Positions 16,912 through 56,319 of a stretch of DNA of 64,000 bases are shown piece by piece. Source of the stretch: a candidate division KSB1 bacterium. GTDB lineage: Bacteria; Electryoneota; RPQS01. Below the pieces are notes generated by a model. The model had not been told where the DNA came from. It searched no databases and saw only the letters and a program-made list of their open reading frames with translations. Location: contig JACRMR010000003.1 in the NCBI GenBank assembly GCA_016214895.1, positions 1 through 64,000 on the forward strand. Direction: 5' to 3'. The position numbers were made by a program, and so were the translations under genes. Position 1 is the stretch's first letter; each line of letters starts with the position of its first letter.

Positions 16912-17231
16912 GCCCGGCGTCAGCGCTGAACAACTTGCGGCAAGAAAATGCAGGTACGCTCAAGTCGTCGCGTCACTCCTGATACGACGAATTCGCCGTG
17001 GCTCTCTGTAGGGTCTCACTCCGAGCAGTAGGGAGATGCGGAAGTGGGCTGACCCGCCCGCTTCGCTTTCTCCCGCCCCCGTTCACGGGGGGCAAGGGGG
17101 GTCTCGTCAAACCTGCCATTCGCGGAGTAGCCACCGCGTCCCTTGTCTCGCCGGCAGGGACTGTGTCCCTGCCGCAATCAGGGAACAGTAATCACAGTGG
17201 GCGGTCATCAGACCGCCTGCACTTCTTGTTT
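16912..17231. other. Gene-free stretch with three hairpins
   Basis: No coding pattern. It contains a CCCCCGTTCACGGGGGG hairpin near 17086, GGCAGGGAC/GTCCCTGCC near 17153-17173 and GGCGGTC/GACCGCC near 17200-17217. They may end the unseen transcript from the right or be intergenic hairpin repeats. A 7-bp repeat array follows at once. Confidence 0.45.
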
Positions 17232-17273
17232 GATCCTTGATCCTTGATCCTTGTTCCTTGTTCCTTGATCCCA
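17232..17273 (+). repeat. 7-bp tandem repeat array (GATCCTT/GTTCCTT), unpaired
   Basis: Six consecutive 7-mers: GATCCTT three times (17232-17252), GTTCCTT twice (17253-17266) and GATCCCA. The unit matches the right arm at 36748-36775. No complementary array or four-helix-bundle gene is seen nearby. The array overlaps the 5' end of the alkA reading frame. Confidence 0.8.
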
Positions 17274-18331: not shown

Positions 18332-18353
18332 GAGGCGGCCCTGCGTGGCCGCC
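18332..18353. terminator. GGCGGCC-type hairpin
   Basis: GAGGCGGCC and GGCCGCC pair around CTGCGT. The sequence is the same as the hairpin cores near 3190 and 14040. Confidence 0.45.
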
Positions 18354-18404
18354 TGCCCCTCGTGGCCGCCTGCCCCTCGTGGCCGCCTGCCCCTCGTGGC
18401 CGCC
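18345..18404 (+). repeat. 17-bp tandem repeat
   Basis: The unit GTGGCCGCCTGCCCCTC is present three times exactly (18345-18361, 18362-18378, 18379-18395) plus a partial fourth. It grows out of the right arm of the preceding hairpin, as if by slippage. Confidence 0.85.
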
Positions 18405-27240: not shown

Positions 27241-27251
27241 TCGCAATTCAG

Positions 27252-27279
27252 GTTTCAAGTTTCACGTTTCAAGTTTGCG
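27252..27279 (+). repeat. 7-bp tandem repeat array (GTTTCAA), unpaired
   Basis: GTTTCAA (27252-27258), GTTTCAC (27259-27265), GTTTCAA (27266-27272) and a degenerate GTTTGCG. It overlaps the possible TTG start of tdk at 27275. No complementary array is seen. Confidence 0.7.
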
Positions 27280-27883
27280 TGTGCATCCCTCTCCTCGTAA
27301 TACCGGCTGGATTGAAGTAATTTGCGGACCGATGTTCTCGGGGAAGACCGAAGAACTGATCCGCCGGCTCGTGCGCGCGCGGATTGCCAAGCAGGCGGTC
27401 GAAATCTTCAAGCCGAAGCTCGATGTGCGCTATGCCAAGACCGAGATCGTCTCGCACTCGCGGCTGGCGATTCCGTCGTCAGTCGTGGAGTCGCCGTGGG
27501 AGGTTCTGGAGCTGGCGAAGCATGCCGAGGTGGTGGGCGTGGATGAAGCACAGTTCCTCGGACTGGAACTCGTGCCGGTGGTGCAGCAGCTCGCCGATTC
27601 CGGCAAGCGCGTGATTATCGCGGGGCTGGACACCGACTATCGCGGACTGCCGTTCGAGCCGATTCCGCAGCTGCTGTGCATCGCCGAATATATTGACAAG
27701 ACCCTGGCCATCTGCGTGCGCTGCGGCAATCCGGCGAAGCACACGCAGCGGACGGTTGATTCCGACGAGCGCGTACTGGTCGGGGAATATGACTCCTATG
27801 AACCGCGCTGCAGGAAGTGCTTTGTGGCGCCGGCGGCGAAGATCGCTGTGGACCAGCTCACGCTGACGATCAACAAGGGATGA
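27275..27883 (+). CDS. tdk: Thymidine kinase
   Basis: About 202 residues, the type II (zinc-containing) class. P-loop GPMFSGKT lies near the N-terminus, the Walker B-like [10 protein letters not shown] in the middle and the zinc-lasso cysteines CVRCG and CRKC near the C-terminus. It phosphorylates thymidine and deoxyuridine with ATP. There is no ATG before the conserved [13 protein letters not shown] 27275 (inside the 7-bp array) or GTG 27281 must serve, with no good ribosome binding site. It belongs to the nucleoside-salvage genes of this region. Confidence 0.9.
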
Positions 27884-27903
27884 GGACGGCGGGATGGGAA
27901 GTC

Positions 27904-27935
27904 AACGATGAACGATGAACGATGAACGATGAAGC
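27904..27935 (+). repeat. Left arm of four-helix-bundle element A: (AACGATG)4
   Basis: Four exact AACGATG units (27904-27931) plus AAGC. They are complementary to the right arm at 28358-28389; with one G-U pair, 32 bp could form in RNA. Confidence 0.9.
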
Positions 27936-27962
27936 CGCCATGAGGACGATGCGGGGACGGCG

Positions 27963-28355
27963 ATGAGTGACCCCGCGCCGGACAGCCGCGGCAAGCCGGG
28001 GGCTGACTTGAAAGCCCGGCTACTCGACTTTTCGCTTCGGATCATTCGACTTCAAGGAGCATTGCCCAAGGCGCCCGCGGCACAGACCATCAGCAGACAG
28101 TTGCTGAGAAGCGGGCTCTCGGTTGGCGCTCAGCAGCGCGAGGCGCATCGCGCAAAATCCGATGCCGACTTTGTCAGCAAGATGGAAGGTGCGCTGGGTG
28201 AGCCGGGCGAGACGACGTATTGGTTGGAGCTGCTGATCGTCGCGAAGATCGTCGAGCCTCGCCGCTTAGCACCACTCATGCGAGAAACCGAGGAATTGAC
28301 ATCAATACTTGTAGCATCGGTGAAACGAGTCAAGTCCCGAAGGACCCGGTCCTGA
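27963..28355 (+). CDS. Four-helix-bundle protein of the 23S rRNA IVS family, element A
   Basis: A 130-residue protein. It has the family pattern F.LRIIRL...LP, QLLRSGLSVGAQQREAHRAKS, DF.SKM..AL and ETTYWLELL in the expected helical order. The family is known as the ORF of intervening sequences in 23S rRNA and, as Avd, as the accessory protein of diversity-generating retroelements; it is basic and thought to bind nucleic acid. Here the gene is free-standing between tdk and nupC, and complementary 7-bp arrays bracket it exactly (27904-27935 and 28358-28389). The paralogue at 36330 has the same arrangement. The ribosome binding site is weak. Confidence 0.88.
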   Translation: MSDPAPDSRGKPGADLKARLLDFSLRIIRLQGALPKAPAAQTISRQLLRSGLSVGAQQREAHRAKSDADFVSKMEGALGEPGETTYWLELLIVAKIVEPRRLAPLMRETEELTSILVASVKRVKSRRTRS

Positions 28356-28357
28356 CC

Positions 28358-28389
28358 GCTTCGTCGTTCATCGTTCATCGTTCATCGTT
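28358..28389 (+). repeat. Right arm of four-helix-bundle element A: (CATCGTT) array
   Basis: GCTT, CGTCGTT, then three exact CATCGTT units (28369-28389), the reverse complement of the left arm. The array ends 10 bases before the nupC ATG and may contribute to or disturb its translation start. Confidence 0.9.
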
Positions 28390-28398
28390 CCCGAATTG

Positions 28399-29649
28399 AT
28401 GGAGCGCCTCCTTTCCCTGCTCGGCATTCCGGTTCTGATCCTGCTGGCATGGTTGATTCTGTCAACCGACCGGCGGCACTTTCCGTGGCGGGTGGTGCTA
28501 TGGGGCGTGGGGCTGCAATTCACGTTTGCGTTTCTGATTCTGTGGACACCGTGGGGGCGGAGTGGCTTCGCGTGGCTGGGGGATGTCGTCACCAAATTCC
28601 TGAGCTATTCGAACGAAGGCGCGGCCTTCATGTTCGGGAATTTGGTCAAGCAAGAGTATCAGCAGACGTTCGGCTTTCAATTCGCGTTTGCGATTTTGCC
28701 GACGATTATCTTTGTCGGCGCGGTGACGTCAATCGGCTATCACCTCGGGGTCCTGCAGCGCATCGTCAAGGGCGTCGCCTGGCTGATGGCCAAGACGATG
28801 GGCACGTCGGGCGCGGAATCGCTTTCGACCGCCGTGAATATCTTCGTCGGTCAGACCGAAGCGCCGCTGGTGATCCGGCCGTTCCTGAACCGGCTCACGA
28901 TGAGCGAACTGAATGCGGTGATGGTCGGCGGGTTCGCGGGGATCGCGGGCGGCGTGATGGCGGGATATATCCTGCTTGGCGTTCCGGCGAAACATCTGCT
29001 GGCGGCGTGCGTGATGTGCGCGCCGGCGTCGTTTGTGTTCGCCAAGATCGCGATTCCGGAACGTGACAAGCCGCTGACGGCCGGCCAGGTGCAGATGCCG
29101 GAGATTCCCCCCGCGTCCAACGTGATCGACGCGGCGGGTGCGGGAGCGCGGGACGGATTGTTGCTGGCGGCGAACGTGGGCGCGATGCTGATCGCATTCA
29201 TCGGGCTGATTGCGCTGATTAACGCGCTGCTCTCGTGGACGTCGGGCCACTTGTTCGATTGGGGCTTTCTCTGGTTCCCGGATAGTCTGCGCACGATCTT
29301 CAGCGTCGTGTTCGTTCCCGTCGGGGTGATCGTCGGCGTGCCGTGGCACGAGTGCCGCGATTTCGCCTACCTGATCGGCACGCAGATCTCGATTAATGAA
29401 TTCGTCGCGTACATCGAGCTGTCCAAGCTGATCGAGTCGGGCGCGCTTAGCGAACGCACGATCACGCTGGCGTCGTACGCGCTGTGCGGCTTTTGTAATT
29501 CTTCGTCCGTCGCGATTCAGATCGGCGGGATCTCAGCGCTGGTGCCGGAGCGCCGGCACGATCTGGCGAAACTTGGCTTGCGCGCGATGTTCTGCGGCGC
29601 GTTCGCCTGCTGGCAGACCGCCACGATCGCGGGCGTGCTGACATCCTGA
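28399..29649 (+). CDS. nupC: Concentrative nucleoside transporter, NupC family
   Basis: A 416-residue inner-membrane protein with about nine hydrophobic segments. The hallmark substrate and ion motif is NIFVGQTEAPLVIRPF near the middle, and a second conserved stretch is EFVAYIELSKL with SNYALCGFxN-like SYALCGFCN. It imports nucleosides with H+ or Na+. It fits the surrounding cdd, udk, tdk and punA as the uptake step of nucleoside salvage. The ATG at 28399 is used; the element A right arm lies directly upstream. Confidence 0.92.
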   Translation: MERLLSLLGIPVLILLAWLILSTDRRHFPWRVVLWGVGLQFTFAFLILWTPWGRSGFAWLGDVVTKFLSYSNEGAAFMFGNLVKQEYQQTFGFQFAFAILPTIIFVGAVTSIGYHLGVLQRIVKGVAWLMAKTMGTSGAESLSTAVNIFVGQTEAPLVIRPFLNRLTMSELNAVMVGGFAGIAGGVMAGYILLGVPAKHLLAACVMCAPASFVFAKIAIPERDKPLTAGQVQMPEIPPASNVIDAAGAGARDGLLLAANVGAMLIAFIGLIALINALLSWTSGHLFDWGFLWFPDSLRTIFSVVFVPVGVIVGVPWHECRDFAYLIGTQISINEFVAYIELSKLIESGALSERTITLASYALCGFCNSSSVAIQIGGISALVPERRHDLAKLGLRAMFCGAFACWQTATIAGVLTS

Positions 29650-35518: not shown

Positions 35519-36345
35519 GCCACAGGTTGCTGCCCGACGTGCAGGCCATGGCGAGACGGGTCCCGGGGCCGGCCGATGTGGCGCTGATTCTCGGCTCGGG
35601 ACTCGGCAAGTTCGCGGACACACTGGAAGATGCGCGCGCGGTTTCCACGCGCGATCTCCCCGGCTATCCGCAATCCACCGTGGCGGGACATGCGGGGCGA
35701 ATTATCGTGGGAAACGTCGGCGCGACTCGGGTCATGGCGTTTCAGGGTCGCGTGCACGTCTATGAGGGTTATGCGCCGGAGGTGGTGGTGACGCCGGTGC
35801 GACTCGCGCACGTGCTGGGGATTCGCACGTTGATCGTCACGAATGCAGCGGGCTCGTTTACCCCCCGGTTCGCGCCGGGCGATCTGCTGCTGATCGAGGA
35901 TCACATCAACCTGCAATTCCGAAATCCGCTGCTGGGACTCTGGGATGAGGGAGTGCGCTGTCCCGACGTGTGTCAATTCTACGATCAGGAGTTGATCGAG
36001 CTGGCGGAGCGGGTGGCGTTACGGGAGCAGATTCCGTTGAAACGCGGCACCTTGGCGGCGCTGACGGGCCCCACGTATGAGACCAAAGCTGAGGCGCGCA
36101 TGCTGGCCCGCCTCGGCGCGGACGCGGGCTGCATGTCCACCGTGCCGGAAGTCATCATGGCGACGGCACTCGGGATGCGCGTGCTGGGGATTTCCTGCGT
36201 GACGAATTTCAGCGCAGCGATTCCGGGATCGGTGCTCGATCATGAGCATGTGCAGCGGGTGGCGGAGCGAGCCAGTGAGAAATTCCAACGACTGGTCGGA
36301 GGAGTGCTGCGAGGGGAGAAGGCGGAAGGATGGCGGACGAAATGA
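35509..36345 (+). CDS. punA: Purine nucleoside phosphorylase
   Basis: A 278-residue protein of the trimeric class. The phosphate-binding GSGLGKFADTL lies near residue 25. VAGHAGR, QGRVHVYEGY and IVTNAAGSF follow, then the purine-site region with TGPTYETKAEARML and MSTVPEVIMA. It cleaves (deoxy)inosine and guanosine with phosphate. The gene is coupled to the P-loop gene upstream. Its 3' end overlaps the start of four-helix-bundle element B by 16 bases. Confidence 0.93.
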   Translation: MGLSHRLLPDVQAMARRVPGPADVALILGSGLGKFADTLEDARAVSTRDLPGYPQSTVAGHAGRIIVGNVGATRVMAFQGRVHVYEGYAPEVVVTPVRLAHVLGIRTLIVTNAAGSFTPRFAPGDLLLIEDHINLQFRNPLLGLWDEGVRCPDVCQFYDQELIELAERVALREQIPLKRGTLAALTGPTYETKAEARMLARLGADAGCMSTVPEVIMATALGMRVLGISCVTNFSAAIPGSVLDHEHVQRVAERASEKFQRLVGGVLRGEKAEGWRTK

Positions 36346-36734
36346 AGGAACAAGGAACAGGGATCAAGGAACAAAGTTCCGAGAGACTTGAATTGAGAGC
36401 GCGGACCAAGCGGCTTGCCCTTCGAGTCATCCGGCTCTACCAATCGTTGCCTCGATCAGGAGCGACGGGTCCGATTGCCAGTCAAGTCCTTCGCTCGGGG
36501 ACTTCTGTTGGTGCGCAATATCGTGAAGCGTGCCGAGCGCGGTCCAACGCCGAGTTCTTGAGCAAGATACAGAGTGCAATGCAGGAACTTGACGAGACCG
36601 GATACTGGCTTGAGTTACTGATCGACTCCGGATTGGTACCGCGGACCAAAGTGGGTCCTCTGAGTGGTGAAGCCGATGAGCTGCTTGCAATCCTGTACTC
36701 CATTCAACGCAAAGTCAAGAGGTCGGCTCGATGA
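36330..36734 (+). CDS. Four-helix-bundle protein of the 23S rRNA IVS family, element B
   Basis: A 134-residue protein. It shares RVIRLYQSLPR, QVLRSGTSVGAQYREACRARS, EFLSKI and ETGYWLELL with the paralogue at 27963. The 7-bp repeats of the left arm (36345-36372) are translated into the N-terminal KEQGTGIKEQ-like stretch, so the true core begins near residue 20. The start codon overlaps the end of punA and the stop shares ATGA with the start of the next gene, so the element sits in a tightly packed run of three genes. Nucleic-acid binding is inferred from the family. Confidence 0.85.
   Translation: MADEMKEQGTGIKEQSSERLELRARTKRLALRVIRLYQSLPRSGATGPIASQVLRSGTSVGAQYREACRARSNAEFLSKIQSAMQELDETGYWLELLIDSGLVPRTKVGPLSGEADELLAILYSIQRKVKRSAR
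36345..36372 (+). repeat. Left arm of four-helix-bundle element B: (AAGGAAC) array
   Basis: AAGGAAC, AAGGAAC, AGGGATC, AAGGAAC. It is complementary to the right arm at 36748-36775 in 26 of 28 positions. Confidence 0.9.
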
Positions 36735-38464
36735 CGCGCTACGCATTGATCCTTGTTCCCTGTTCCTTGTTCCTTGTTCTGGCTGCTTCCGCTCAGCAGC
36801 TCTACGATCCCGGCGACTGGGTGTCCTATCAGGATTTTCGCTATGCGCGGGCGCTGGACGCGGGTCAGCATGAGCTGTTCGTGGCGACGTCGGGCGGGAT
36901 TCTCAACTACGATCTGCTCAAGCGACAGTGGTATGATCCGATGGTCGTCGGCTACAGTTTGTCGGGGCCGGTGCGAATCGACGATCCGATGCTGCTCTAT
37001 TTCGATGATCCGGCGCAGCGCTTGTGGGTGGCGACACGCACGCAGCTACTGCAGTACGACCTCGGGATGGAGAGCTGGAAGCTCACCGATCACGACCGTT
37101 GGACGGAGCAGGAGCTGGTCGTGAATCTGGGAGTGGGCGGTGAAGATTTGTACGTAGAGACGATTCCGGCCAGCCTCTATACGCGGCTGTTCCACCCGAA
37201 TAGTCCGATTCCCGATCCGATCTGGTATGATGCCGTCACGCGCTACAAGGGCTCGCGGCAGTTCGGCGGCCTGATGATCGATATCAGCGGGGCTGATCCG
37301 GGGAACGTCCGCTGGCGCGGGCTGCGTTCGAAGATTCCGCTGGAACGCAACGATTTGCTGAATCCGCAGCCGCTGCCACCCGTCGGCTTCCCGGTAGCGC
37401 TGATGCCCTCCGGCTATACCTGGCAGGCTGACGGCACGGTCATCGATCAGCAGCTGCGCCCGGCTCCGATCACAGACTGGATCATGGACCGCTGGGGTAC
37501 GCTCTGGACCGCGCAGTGGGGTGCCGGGATCATGCAGACCGATTTGAGACTCGGGAGCGCGACATTCTACCAGGCGGGACCGGCGGGAAACGATGTTCGC
37601 ACGATCCACATCGGACCCGAAAAGATCTGGATGGGCGGGCTGAACTCGGGCGAGCGCGAAGGATTTGCGCGGGTGAACGACTATTTCGACGAGTGGACGA
37701 CGGTTGAGCGGCGCGCTGACTCACGCATCCGATCCACCGACGTCTGGGACATCACGGACTGGGGCGGCAAAGTCTGGTTTGCAACCAATGAGGGGTTACT
37801 CTCGTATCATGAGAAGAGGGGGACGTGGGAGCGGCTGGATGTGACGGACAATCTCTATGCCAGTGAGATTCGTGCGCTGGCCCGCGGCGGGAATTCGCTC
37901 TGGGTGGGGACGGTGCGGGGCCTCTGCGAACTGGGCGCGGGGGGGGAGATCTGGCGGGTACAGAATCCGGGAATCGAACTGGCCGGAGTGACCGATCTGC
38001 TGCTGTTCAACGATGACCTGTTCGTGGCGACGCCGCAGGGGCTGTTCAAGGGGTCCGCGAGCAACCGTGAATTCAGCTATGTCGATCTCGAAGGCGGTCT
38101 GCTGAATGCGCCGGTCGTGGACCTGTGTCTCGATGGCGATAGTGTGTGGCTGGCGACCCCGGATGGGATTGAAGTCATGAACACAGACGGCGGTTATCTG
38201 AAAAGCTGGCTATCGAACACGTGGTTCAACAGCAGCCGCGTGAGCAGCATTCTGGCGACGGACCGGCATGTCTGGGTGGGAACCGACGGCAGCGGCATGT
38301 ACCGCTACCGCAAAGATACCGGCGAGTGGATCAGCTATACCACCGCTGACGGGCTCATCGACAACCACGTTCAGGTGCTCCGGTTGTTTGGCGATGACTT
38401 GCTGATCGGAACCCCGAACGGTTTGACTCGGTTCTATTGGAACAGGGCGGGCCGGCTGAGGTAG
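36731..38464 (+). CDS. Secreted beta-propeller protein (two-component-regulator-propeller type)
   Basis: A 577-residue protein. Residues about 1-22 are a signal peptide whose hydrophobic core (LILVPCSLFLVL) is encoded by the right-arm repeats of element B. The rest consists of repeated propeller blades with the patterns LFVATSGGILNYD, LWVATRTQLLQYD, VWFATNEGLLSYH, LWVGTVRGLCEL, VWLATPDGIEVMN and VWVGTDGSGMYRY. Such blades in other proteins sit in periplasmic sensor domains; here no kinase or membrane segment follows. There is no sorting tail. It is likely periplasmic or secreted and translationally coupled to the four-helix-bundle gene through ATGA. Confidence 0.8.
   Translation: MTRYALILVPCSLFLVLAASAQQLYDPGDWVSYQDFRYARALDAGQHELFVATSGGILNYDLLKRQWYDPMVVGYSLSGPVRIDDPMLLYFDDPAQRLWVATRTQLLQYDLGMESWKLTDHDRWTEQELVVNLGVGGEDLYVETIPASLYTRLFHPNSPIPDPIWYDAVTRYKGSRQFGGLMIDISGADPGNVRWRGLRSKIPLERNDLLNPQPLPPVGFPVALMPSGYTWQADGTVIDQQLRPAPITDWIMDRWGTLWTAQWGAGIMQTDLRLGSATFYQAGPAGNDVRTIHIGPEKIWMGGLNSGEREGFARVNDYFDEWTTVERRADSRIRSTDVWDITDWGGKVWFATNEGLLSYHEKRGTWERLDVTDNLYASEIRALARGGNSLWVGTVRGLCELGAGGEIWRVQNPGIELAGVTDLLLFNDDLFVATPQGLFKGSASNREFSYVDLEGGLLNAPVVDLCLDGDSVWLATPDGIEVMNTDGGYLKSWLSNTWFNSSRVSSILATDRHVWVGTDGSGMYRYRKDTGEWISYTTADGLIDNHVQVLRLFGDDLLIGTPNGLTRFYWNRAGRLR
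36748..36775 (+). repeat. Right arm of four-helix-bundle element B: (GTTCCTT) array
   Basis: GATCCTT, GTTCCCT, GTTCCTT, GTTCCTT. It lies within codons 6-15 of the next gene. Confidence 0.9.
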
Positions 38465-51403: not shown

Positions 51404-51438
51404 AGTTTCGATTTTCGTTTTTCAATTTCCAATTTGGA
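51404..51438 (+). repeat. Degenerate 7-bp repeats before arsM
   Basis: AGTTTCG, ATTTTCG, TTTTTCA, ATTTCCA, ATTTGGA in register (51404-51438). The last unit supplies the GGAG used as ribosome binding site for arsM. Confidence 0.5.
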
Positions 51439-55938: not shown

Positions 55939-56245
55939 GCCGAGCGGGGTCTTGTTCGCCGAGCGGGGTGCCCTCACCCCGCCGGAATCTTCGCTTCGCC
56001 GAGCCGTGCGTCCTCGCGCAGCCGGAATCGGAGTCTTCTTCGCCGCGGCATGTGTCTCCACATGCCCGGAATCGGGATCTTCTGTTCGCCGAGCGGGGTG
56101 CCCTCACCCCGCCGGAATCTTCGCTTCGCCGAGCCGTGCGTCCTCACCCCGCCGGAATCGGAGTCTTCTTCGCCGCGGCATGTGTCTTCACATGCCCGGA
56201 ATCTTCGCTCCGCCGAGCGGGGATTCCTTCCCCGCCGGAATTTCG
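55939..56245 (+). repeat. Cluster of variable-stem hairpin elements with a 130-bp tandem period
   Basis: A block starting TTCGCCGAGCGGGGTGCCCT at 55955 recurs at 56085, period 130 bp. Within it, hairpins alternate: GGGGT/ACCCC (55964 and 56094 regions), a GTGCG-containing unit, and GCATGTG/CACATGC (56047-56064 and 56177-56194), each between a CGCCG(A/C)G flank and a CCGGAAT(C) flank. A final unit has GGGGA/TCCCC (56219-56233). The open frames crossing it are repeat-derived. Confidence 0.85.
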
Positions 56246-56319
56246 CCTTGCTTCCCGGTATGGGCGGATTAAACTCTACCCCGGTGATTCTGTCTAACGA
56301 TCGGACGGCCAGAATCGAA

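Follow-up and report, generated by a model that had tools for sequence, protein, structure and literature searches.

S23p genes between inverted heptamer arrays: a candidate family of small mobile elements

An S23p gene between tdk and nupC

What is a gene of the kind found in 23S rRNA intervening sequences doing between tdk and nupC, outside any 23S rRNA gene and enclosed by complementary 7-bp repeats? The question is raised by element A, a locus in the 64-kb window (the whole stretch of DNA analysed here) that the original prediction took to be a distinct mobile or RNA-processing element. The ORF at 27963–28355 (+), which encodes a 130-residue four-helix-bundle protein, was correctly placed in the intervening-sequence family: profile searches match it to PF05635 (E 3e-16, 59.8 bits against a curated cut-off of 33.8) and to TIGR02436 (E 2e-21, 76.4 bits against a cut-off of 24), and the protein also matches PDB entry 2RLD (five chains; E 8e-19). 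PF05635 is the only Pfam-type family found in this gene, and a Y1 transposase, the hallmark of REPtrons and RAYTs, is absent from it. This S23p gene is the sole ORF between the two arms.

The left terminal array (27904–27935, +) comprises 4.3 units of AACGATG, or five cores as defined below; four exact units at 27904–27931 are followed by a continuation to 27933. The right terminal array, of CGTTCAT units that are the reverse complement of the left, begins at 28358 or 28360 and ends at 28390 (−). The predicted enclosing arrays are indeed there, and they form the best inverted repeat in the whole window. Folding of the arms as RNA gives a terminal stem of ~31 bp (MFE −226 kcal/mol, z −5.5), in agreement with the anticipated stem of about 32 bp. 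On the 5′ side lies the thymidine kinase gene tdk (27275–27883, +), at whose stop codon the arrays of related elements begin, and on the 3′ side a nupC-type transporter gene (28399–29649, +). By eye, possible degenerate outer units (AGGGATG AGGACGG CGGGATG GGAAGTC) can be discerned at 27877–27903 (+) in the same 7-nt phase; were these included, the left array of element A might begin at the tdk stop as it does in relatives.

The second-best inverted repeat in the window, with the unit AAGGAAC, surrounds a second S23p gene (36345–36779). In this element B, the left array (36345–36374, +) precedes the gene (36384–36734, +; PF05635 match at 36384–36698), and the right array (36746–36779, −) falls within the beginning of the ORF that follows downstream. 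There it encodes part of an apparent signal peptide, the signal-peptide-like MTRYALILVPCSLFLVLAASAQQ, at the start of a secreted protein (window 36731–36800). In relatives, the array at the start of this downstream gene outlasts an S23p gene that has been lost (..FILHPSSFIL.. type). The conversion of an array into part of a signal peptide at one site would mean that these elements also feed new coding sequence.

The genome carries six S23p genes in all (PF05635/TIGR02436), one of which (L001) has a stop codon inside the gene. All six are flanked by inverted arrays, and six different units are used: AAATGCAG (period 8), AAGGAAC, AAACTTG, AAATCCC, GAACTAT and AACGATG. A survey of 800 kb of this genome yielded 29 period-7 arrays, compared with 0–5 for any other period and 0–1 in shuffled sequence. 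Every inverted pair of arrays with matching units (6–7 of 7 positions) in these 800 kb encloses an S23p gene; inverted pairs of equal quality around unrelated genes, which the original prediction had named as evidence against itself, do not occur there.

About 20 arrays in the same 800 kb are solo, having neither an inverted partner nor an S23p gene, and most are of the same 4.3–4.7-unit length. The best-matching unit is that of element L003 for 13 of 21 solo arrays and that of element B for one, and the match between solo arrays and the genome's own elements reaches p = 0.055 against random element sets from other genomes; for about a third, none of the genome's S23 elements is a good match. 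Within the window, partnerless arrays lie at 17230–17271 (−; TTGATCC/TTGTTCC, the unit vocabulary of element B, without S23p), at 27247–27276 (−; TTCAAGT, just 5′ of tdk, with the unit of L003 elsewhere in the genome) and at 51406–51435 (−; TTTCGAT, with no clear cognate S23p element). At G000 C3, a 30-bp GATAGAT array is present as two direct copies 1.15 kb apart (255435–255464 and 256616–256645), which have similar flanks and neither an inverted partner nor S23p.

Distribution, placement and arm design

The S23p family is present in 40 of 61 related genomes. Compared with cross-paired flanks, 35 of 36 loci have an inverted repeat at p < 0.05. A separate set comprised 80 named loci drawn from about a dozen phyla; of the 79 that could be scored, 84% surpass the 95th percentile of their control windows, which lay 1.2–2.3 kb away. 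Homologues that usually lack flanking arrays, the other observation named as damaging to the prediction, are not what these surveys returned. Among 119 loci with period-7 arrays on both sides (a few are mutual duplicates, which leaves the picture unchanged), the two arms agree in unit at 6–7 of 7 positions in 82% of cases, compared with 5% for arms of different elements. The expectation that arrays would flank most copies, with units differing between elements, is borne out: the element family is general and widespread, occurring in about a dozen phyla, and its word varies from element to element while the two ends of each agree.

The placement of the arrays is precise. At 93 loci with an upstream gene in the same direction, the left array starts where that gene stops (relative to the stop codon the median is −1 nt, and 85% of starts fall between −30 and +10), and the next start codon follows the right array at a median of 5 nt. 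Within operons, 66 elements are in sense orientation and 13 in antisense; both the placement and the orientation counts rest on mechanical ORF calls.

The arms have a defined length, with a sharp peak at 30–33 nt. When arms are aligned by their ends, A or G occupies positions 0–1, 7–8, 14–15, 21–22 and 28–29, giving five cores and four spacers, with both arm ends falling on a core. The second core position is almost never C, and a G often stands just before each core. Among internal units, successive copies differ at 10.7% of core positions versus 22.0% of spacer positions (p = 4e-9), and simulated arrays with even mutation have no such core effect (14.1% core and 15.0% spacer mismatch). Some arms depart from the usual length: those of L031 have 17–23 cores, many more than five, and in L031, L041 and L113 the arms have grown to 17–30 units.

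These features bear on an explanation at the RNA level, in which the arrays form a double-stranded stem for RNase III that frees the S23p message and separates the messages of its neighbours, with mobility a rare by-product. The predicted terminal stem of element A is consistent with this explanation, as are the sense bias and the precedent of the Coxiella 23S intervening sequence, which combines a 28-bp RNase III-cut stem, an S23p ORF and GACAGAT heptamers (PMC4990558). In the 49 elements with variant units, in-register pairing of the arms amounts to 24.7 of 28 positions, slightly above the 24.2 reached when the units of each arm are shuffled (p 0.004–0.014). This gain over a common vocabulary is, however, worth only ~0.5 of 28 positions: the two arms have a vocabulary of 7-mers in common more than they have a unit order, and a perfect RNA stem is weakly supported as the main constraint. 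The 7-nt period, the five cores, the core conservation and the solo arrays would also be left unexplained, and we regard an RNA-level function as the primary one as unlikely. Because cores are conserved beyond spacers and the order of variants is barely matched, the arms point instead to recognition of a repeated core, beyond base pairing alone.

Filled sites, empty sites and co-inheritance

The comparison of empty sites proposed with the original prediction proved informative both at tdk|nupC and on Nostocales plasmids. The two genes abut directly in five relatives, and an element is present between them in the window's genome and in two others. In a further genome (L124, G007), the tdk–nupC gap holds a different small gene followed by a solo right array, CGTTCAT. 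A purine nucleoside phosphorylase site is empty in three genomes and retains the right array alone, inside a downstream signal peptide, in two; in one more, a pair of inverted arrays encloses no gene. Trichormus plasmid C carries an element that is missing from the ~97% identical plasmids of Aulosira, N. carneum and Tolypothrix; the insert of ~423 bp is accompanied by a 5-bp duplication, GTAAT, that holds the upstream stop codon, such that empty AAAAAGTAATTAACAAATAA becomes filled AAAAAGTAAT-element-GTAATTAACAAATAA. Nostocales plasmids also differ at two more sites that lie one gene apart, each occupied in some plasmids and empty in others, with a 3-bp duplication (ATG) at one and an ambiguous duplication of 0–5 bp at the other. 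A candidate transposed pair in N. desertorum (L068/L084) was rejected as a segmental duplication that includes the flanks.

The existence of filled and empty sites indicates that S23 elements are mobile and that the arrays are their termini. Of the two possibilities in the original prediction, the one supported is a distinct mobile element, laid out like a 23S intervening sequence but standing alone between protein genes. DDE transposons duplicate a target of fixed length; here one site has a clean duplication of 5 bp, the others 3 bp or an ambiguous 0–5 bp, and the miniature form described next 0–1 bp. This variation implies no single integration chemistry and speaks against a single transposase with a fixed stagger.

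The miniature form is 185 bp long and gene-less, with the same arms around an unrelated conserved interior; 42 Nostocales plasmids carry it, at 83 places in all when some partial matches are counted. It has inserted once into an S23p gene, on a Nostoc N6 plasmid. A search of Rfam with this form gave no match up to E = 1. Members of the family (L258:590–800, L261 and L268) have a conserved, hairpin-rich interior. The miniatures suggest mobilisation in trans.

The more similar two proteins are, the more similar are their units: 3.6 of 7 positions agree below 20% protein identity, 5.4 at 60–70% and 7.0 above 85%, a correlation reached by none of 1000 permutations. S23p proteins of ~70% identity from Desulfobacterota, Chloroflexota, cyanobacteria and Acidobacteriota have 6 of 7 unit positions in common, and a single Nostoc genome holds several S23p lineages that differ in their units. 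Since unit similarity follows protein identity, array and gene are co-inherited. The protein itself is under purifying selection in most scorable pairs: dN/dS is 0.04–0.17 in eight pairs; of the rest, six have saturated synonymous sites and two are too nearly identical to be informative. The S23 protein tree, read for vertical descent versus repeated insertion in the window's family, is mostly unresolved.

Co-inheritance weighs against a second explanation, in which insertion takes the unit from the target by amplifying and inverting the last stretch of the upstream gene. Its appeal lies in tdk, whose last codons equal the unit in two genomes (AAACGATGA in G002 and AAAGGATGA in G009), and in one empty tdk|nupC site that bears one such unit. 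Yet three related elements keep AATTCGT at unrelated Nostocales loci, resemblance between units goes with protein identity even between phyla, and the empty plasmid sites lack a unit of this kind. Target copying is rejected as a general rule, since the unit stays the same in related elements that occupy unrelated loci, and we consider it highly improbable as an account of the family. Least credible of all, to the point that we give it almost no weight, is the explanation that these are ordinary slippage-prone heptamer repeats with S23p genes merely nearby: Mrazek 2007, as cited in PMC4679880, ranks heptamers first in abundance among the long simple repeats of many bacterial genomes, and solo arrays outnumber S23 elements in the genome, but it is already contradicted by the matched inverted pairs, which in the 800 kb enclose S23p genes alone, the unit follows the protein lineage, and the arms have conserved cores and a peaked length where slippage would give even mutations and open-ended length.

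A proposed mechanism and known systems

S23p, a protein family with no known function, forms a homopentameric ring built from four-helix bundles, according to Lin 2006 as cited in PMC4990558. The simplest reading of the arm design is that five cores would serve five S23p subunits. We propose, with reasonable though not high confidence, that S23 elements are a family of small mobile elements in which pentameric S23p acts on five-core inverted arms and an outside enzyme carries out cutting and joining. Element A, of ~490 bp, has S23p as its sole gene, and its ends are inverted arrays in which five cores, each beginning with purines, follow one another at 7-nt intervals. Like most of the family, which is mostly in sense, it sits where two cistrons meet; this leaves both neighbours whole and would allow S23p to be expressed by read-through. 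Homopentameric S23p would most likely sit on an arm, one subunit per core, and bring the two ends together; such binding is what we infer as the best mechanistic account of the sequences. We know of no catalytic or nuclease motif in S23p, and strand cutting and joining would fall to an enzyme from elsewhere. Gene-less copies with the same arms would be moved in trans, and worn copies would leave solo arrays behind.

More tentatively, and at somewhat less than even confidence, we suggest that these elements could constitute a new transposase-less mobile class, in which a pentameric ring reads five 7-nt cores per end and an outside enzyme inserts the element at cistron junctions, and that much of the unexplained heptamer-repeat load of bacterial genomes, together with the 23S intervening sequences, would be its products. 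Three puzzles, namely the role of S23p, the abundance of 7-nt tandem repeats and the movement of intervening sequences, would then be joined in one testable system. The proposal makes a structural prediction of one ring on five cores, and pairs of protein and word could yield a recognition code.

REPtrons, in which a RAYT transposase gene lies between inverted REPs and solo REPs are dispersed, resemble S23 elements in that a gene is bounded by inverted short sequences; the scattered solo arrays may be the counterpart of solo REPs. S23 elements differ from them in that S23p has no known nuclease motif and that they end in tandem arrays, with a word that changes from one element to the next. The miniature forms (L258, L261) are like MITEs, being gene-less and having only their ends in common with a coding element, whereas the S23 coding element, unlike the source of a MITE, has no recognisable transposase, and duplication length varies among the sites compared. 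Avd of diversity-generating retroelements is a pentameric four-helix-bundle protein, related to S23p in fold; neither a reverse transcriptase nor a template repeat was seen between S23 arms in a non-systematic look.

The closest likeness is to the 23S intervening sequences of Coxiella and Leptospira, which have an S23p-family ORF and complementary ends, as element A does. Those sequences lie within helices of the rRNA, from which RNase III excises them, whereas S23 elements lie at junctions of protein genes. In Coxiella, the intervening sequence is ~430 nt long and contains an S23p ORF and a 28-bp terminal stem, and tandem GACAGAT heptamers upstream of the ORF vary in number between strains (PMC4990558). 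Given its similar size, S23p ORF, stem and strain-variable heptamers, the Coxiella sequence probably represents an S23 element that became established in rRNA, and 23S intervening sequences would be the ribosomal form of the family.

Heptamers have also been reported by Rehm et al. (PMC4692102) as GGGAATC in Xanthomonas and GGGGA(C/T)T in Nostoc and read as G-quadruplexes; they are mostly of four units, intergenic, a mean of 28 nt from the upstream ORF and, in Xanthomonas, often in inverted pairs, and were described as generally not associated with mobile elements. They have the 7-nt period of S23 arrays, but no link to S23p is made there, and S23 units are often not G-rich. In the open-access literature we found a link between S23p and heptamers for Coxiella alone and none in general, and within that literature the S23p link, the five-core design and the filled and empty pairs appear to be new.

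Three smaller observations remain. Two repeats in the window have other periods: a long imperfect tandem repeat at 55953–56246, with periods of 130 bp and 40–44 bp, is unrelated to the heptamers, and a near-perfect 17-bp tandem repeat of 3.8 copies, CCCTCGTGGCCGCCTGC, lies at 18339–18404. On Planktothrix agardhii plasmid p1 (L249), an S23p gene stands amid long heptamer arrays between DISARM drmD and a methyltransferase gene that is annotated as BREX PglX.
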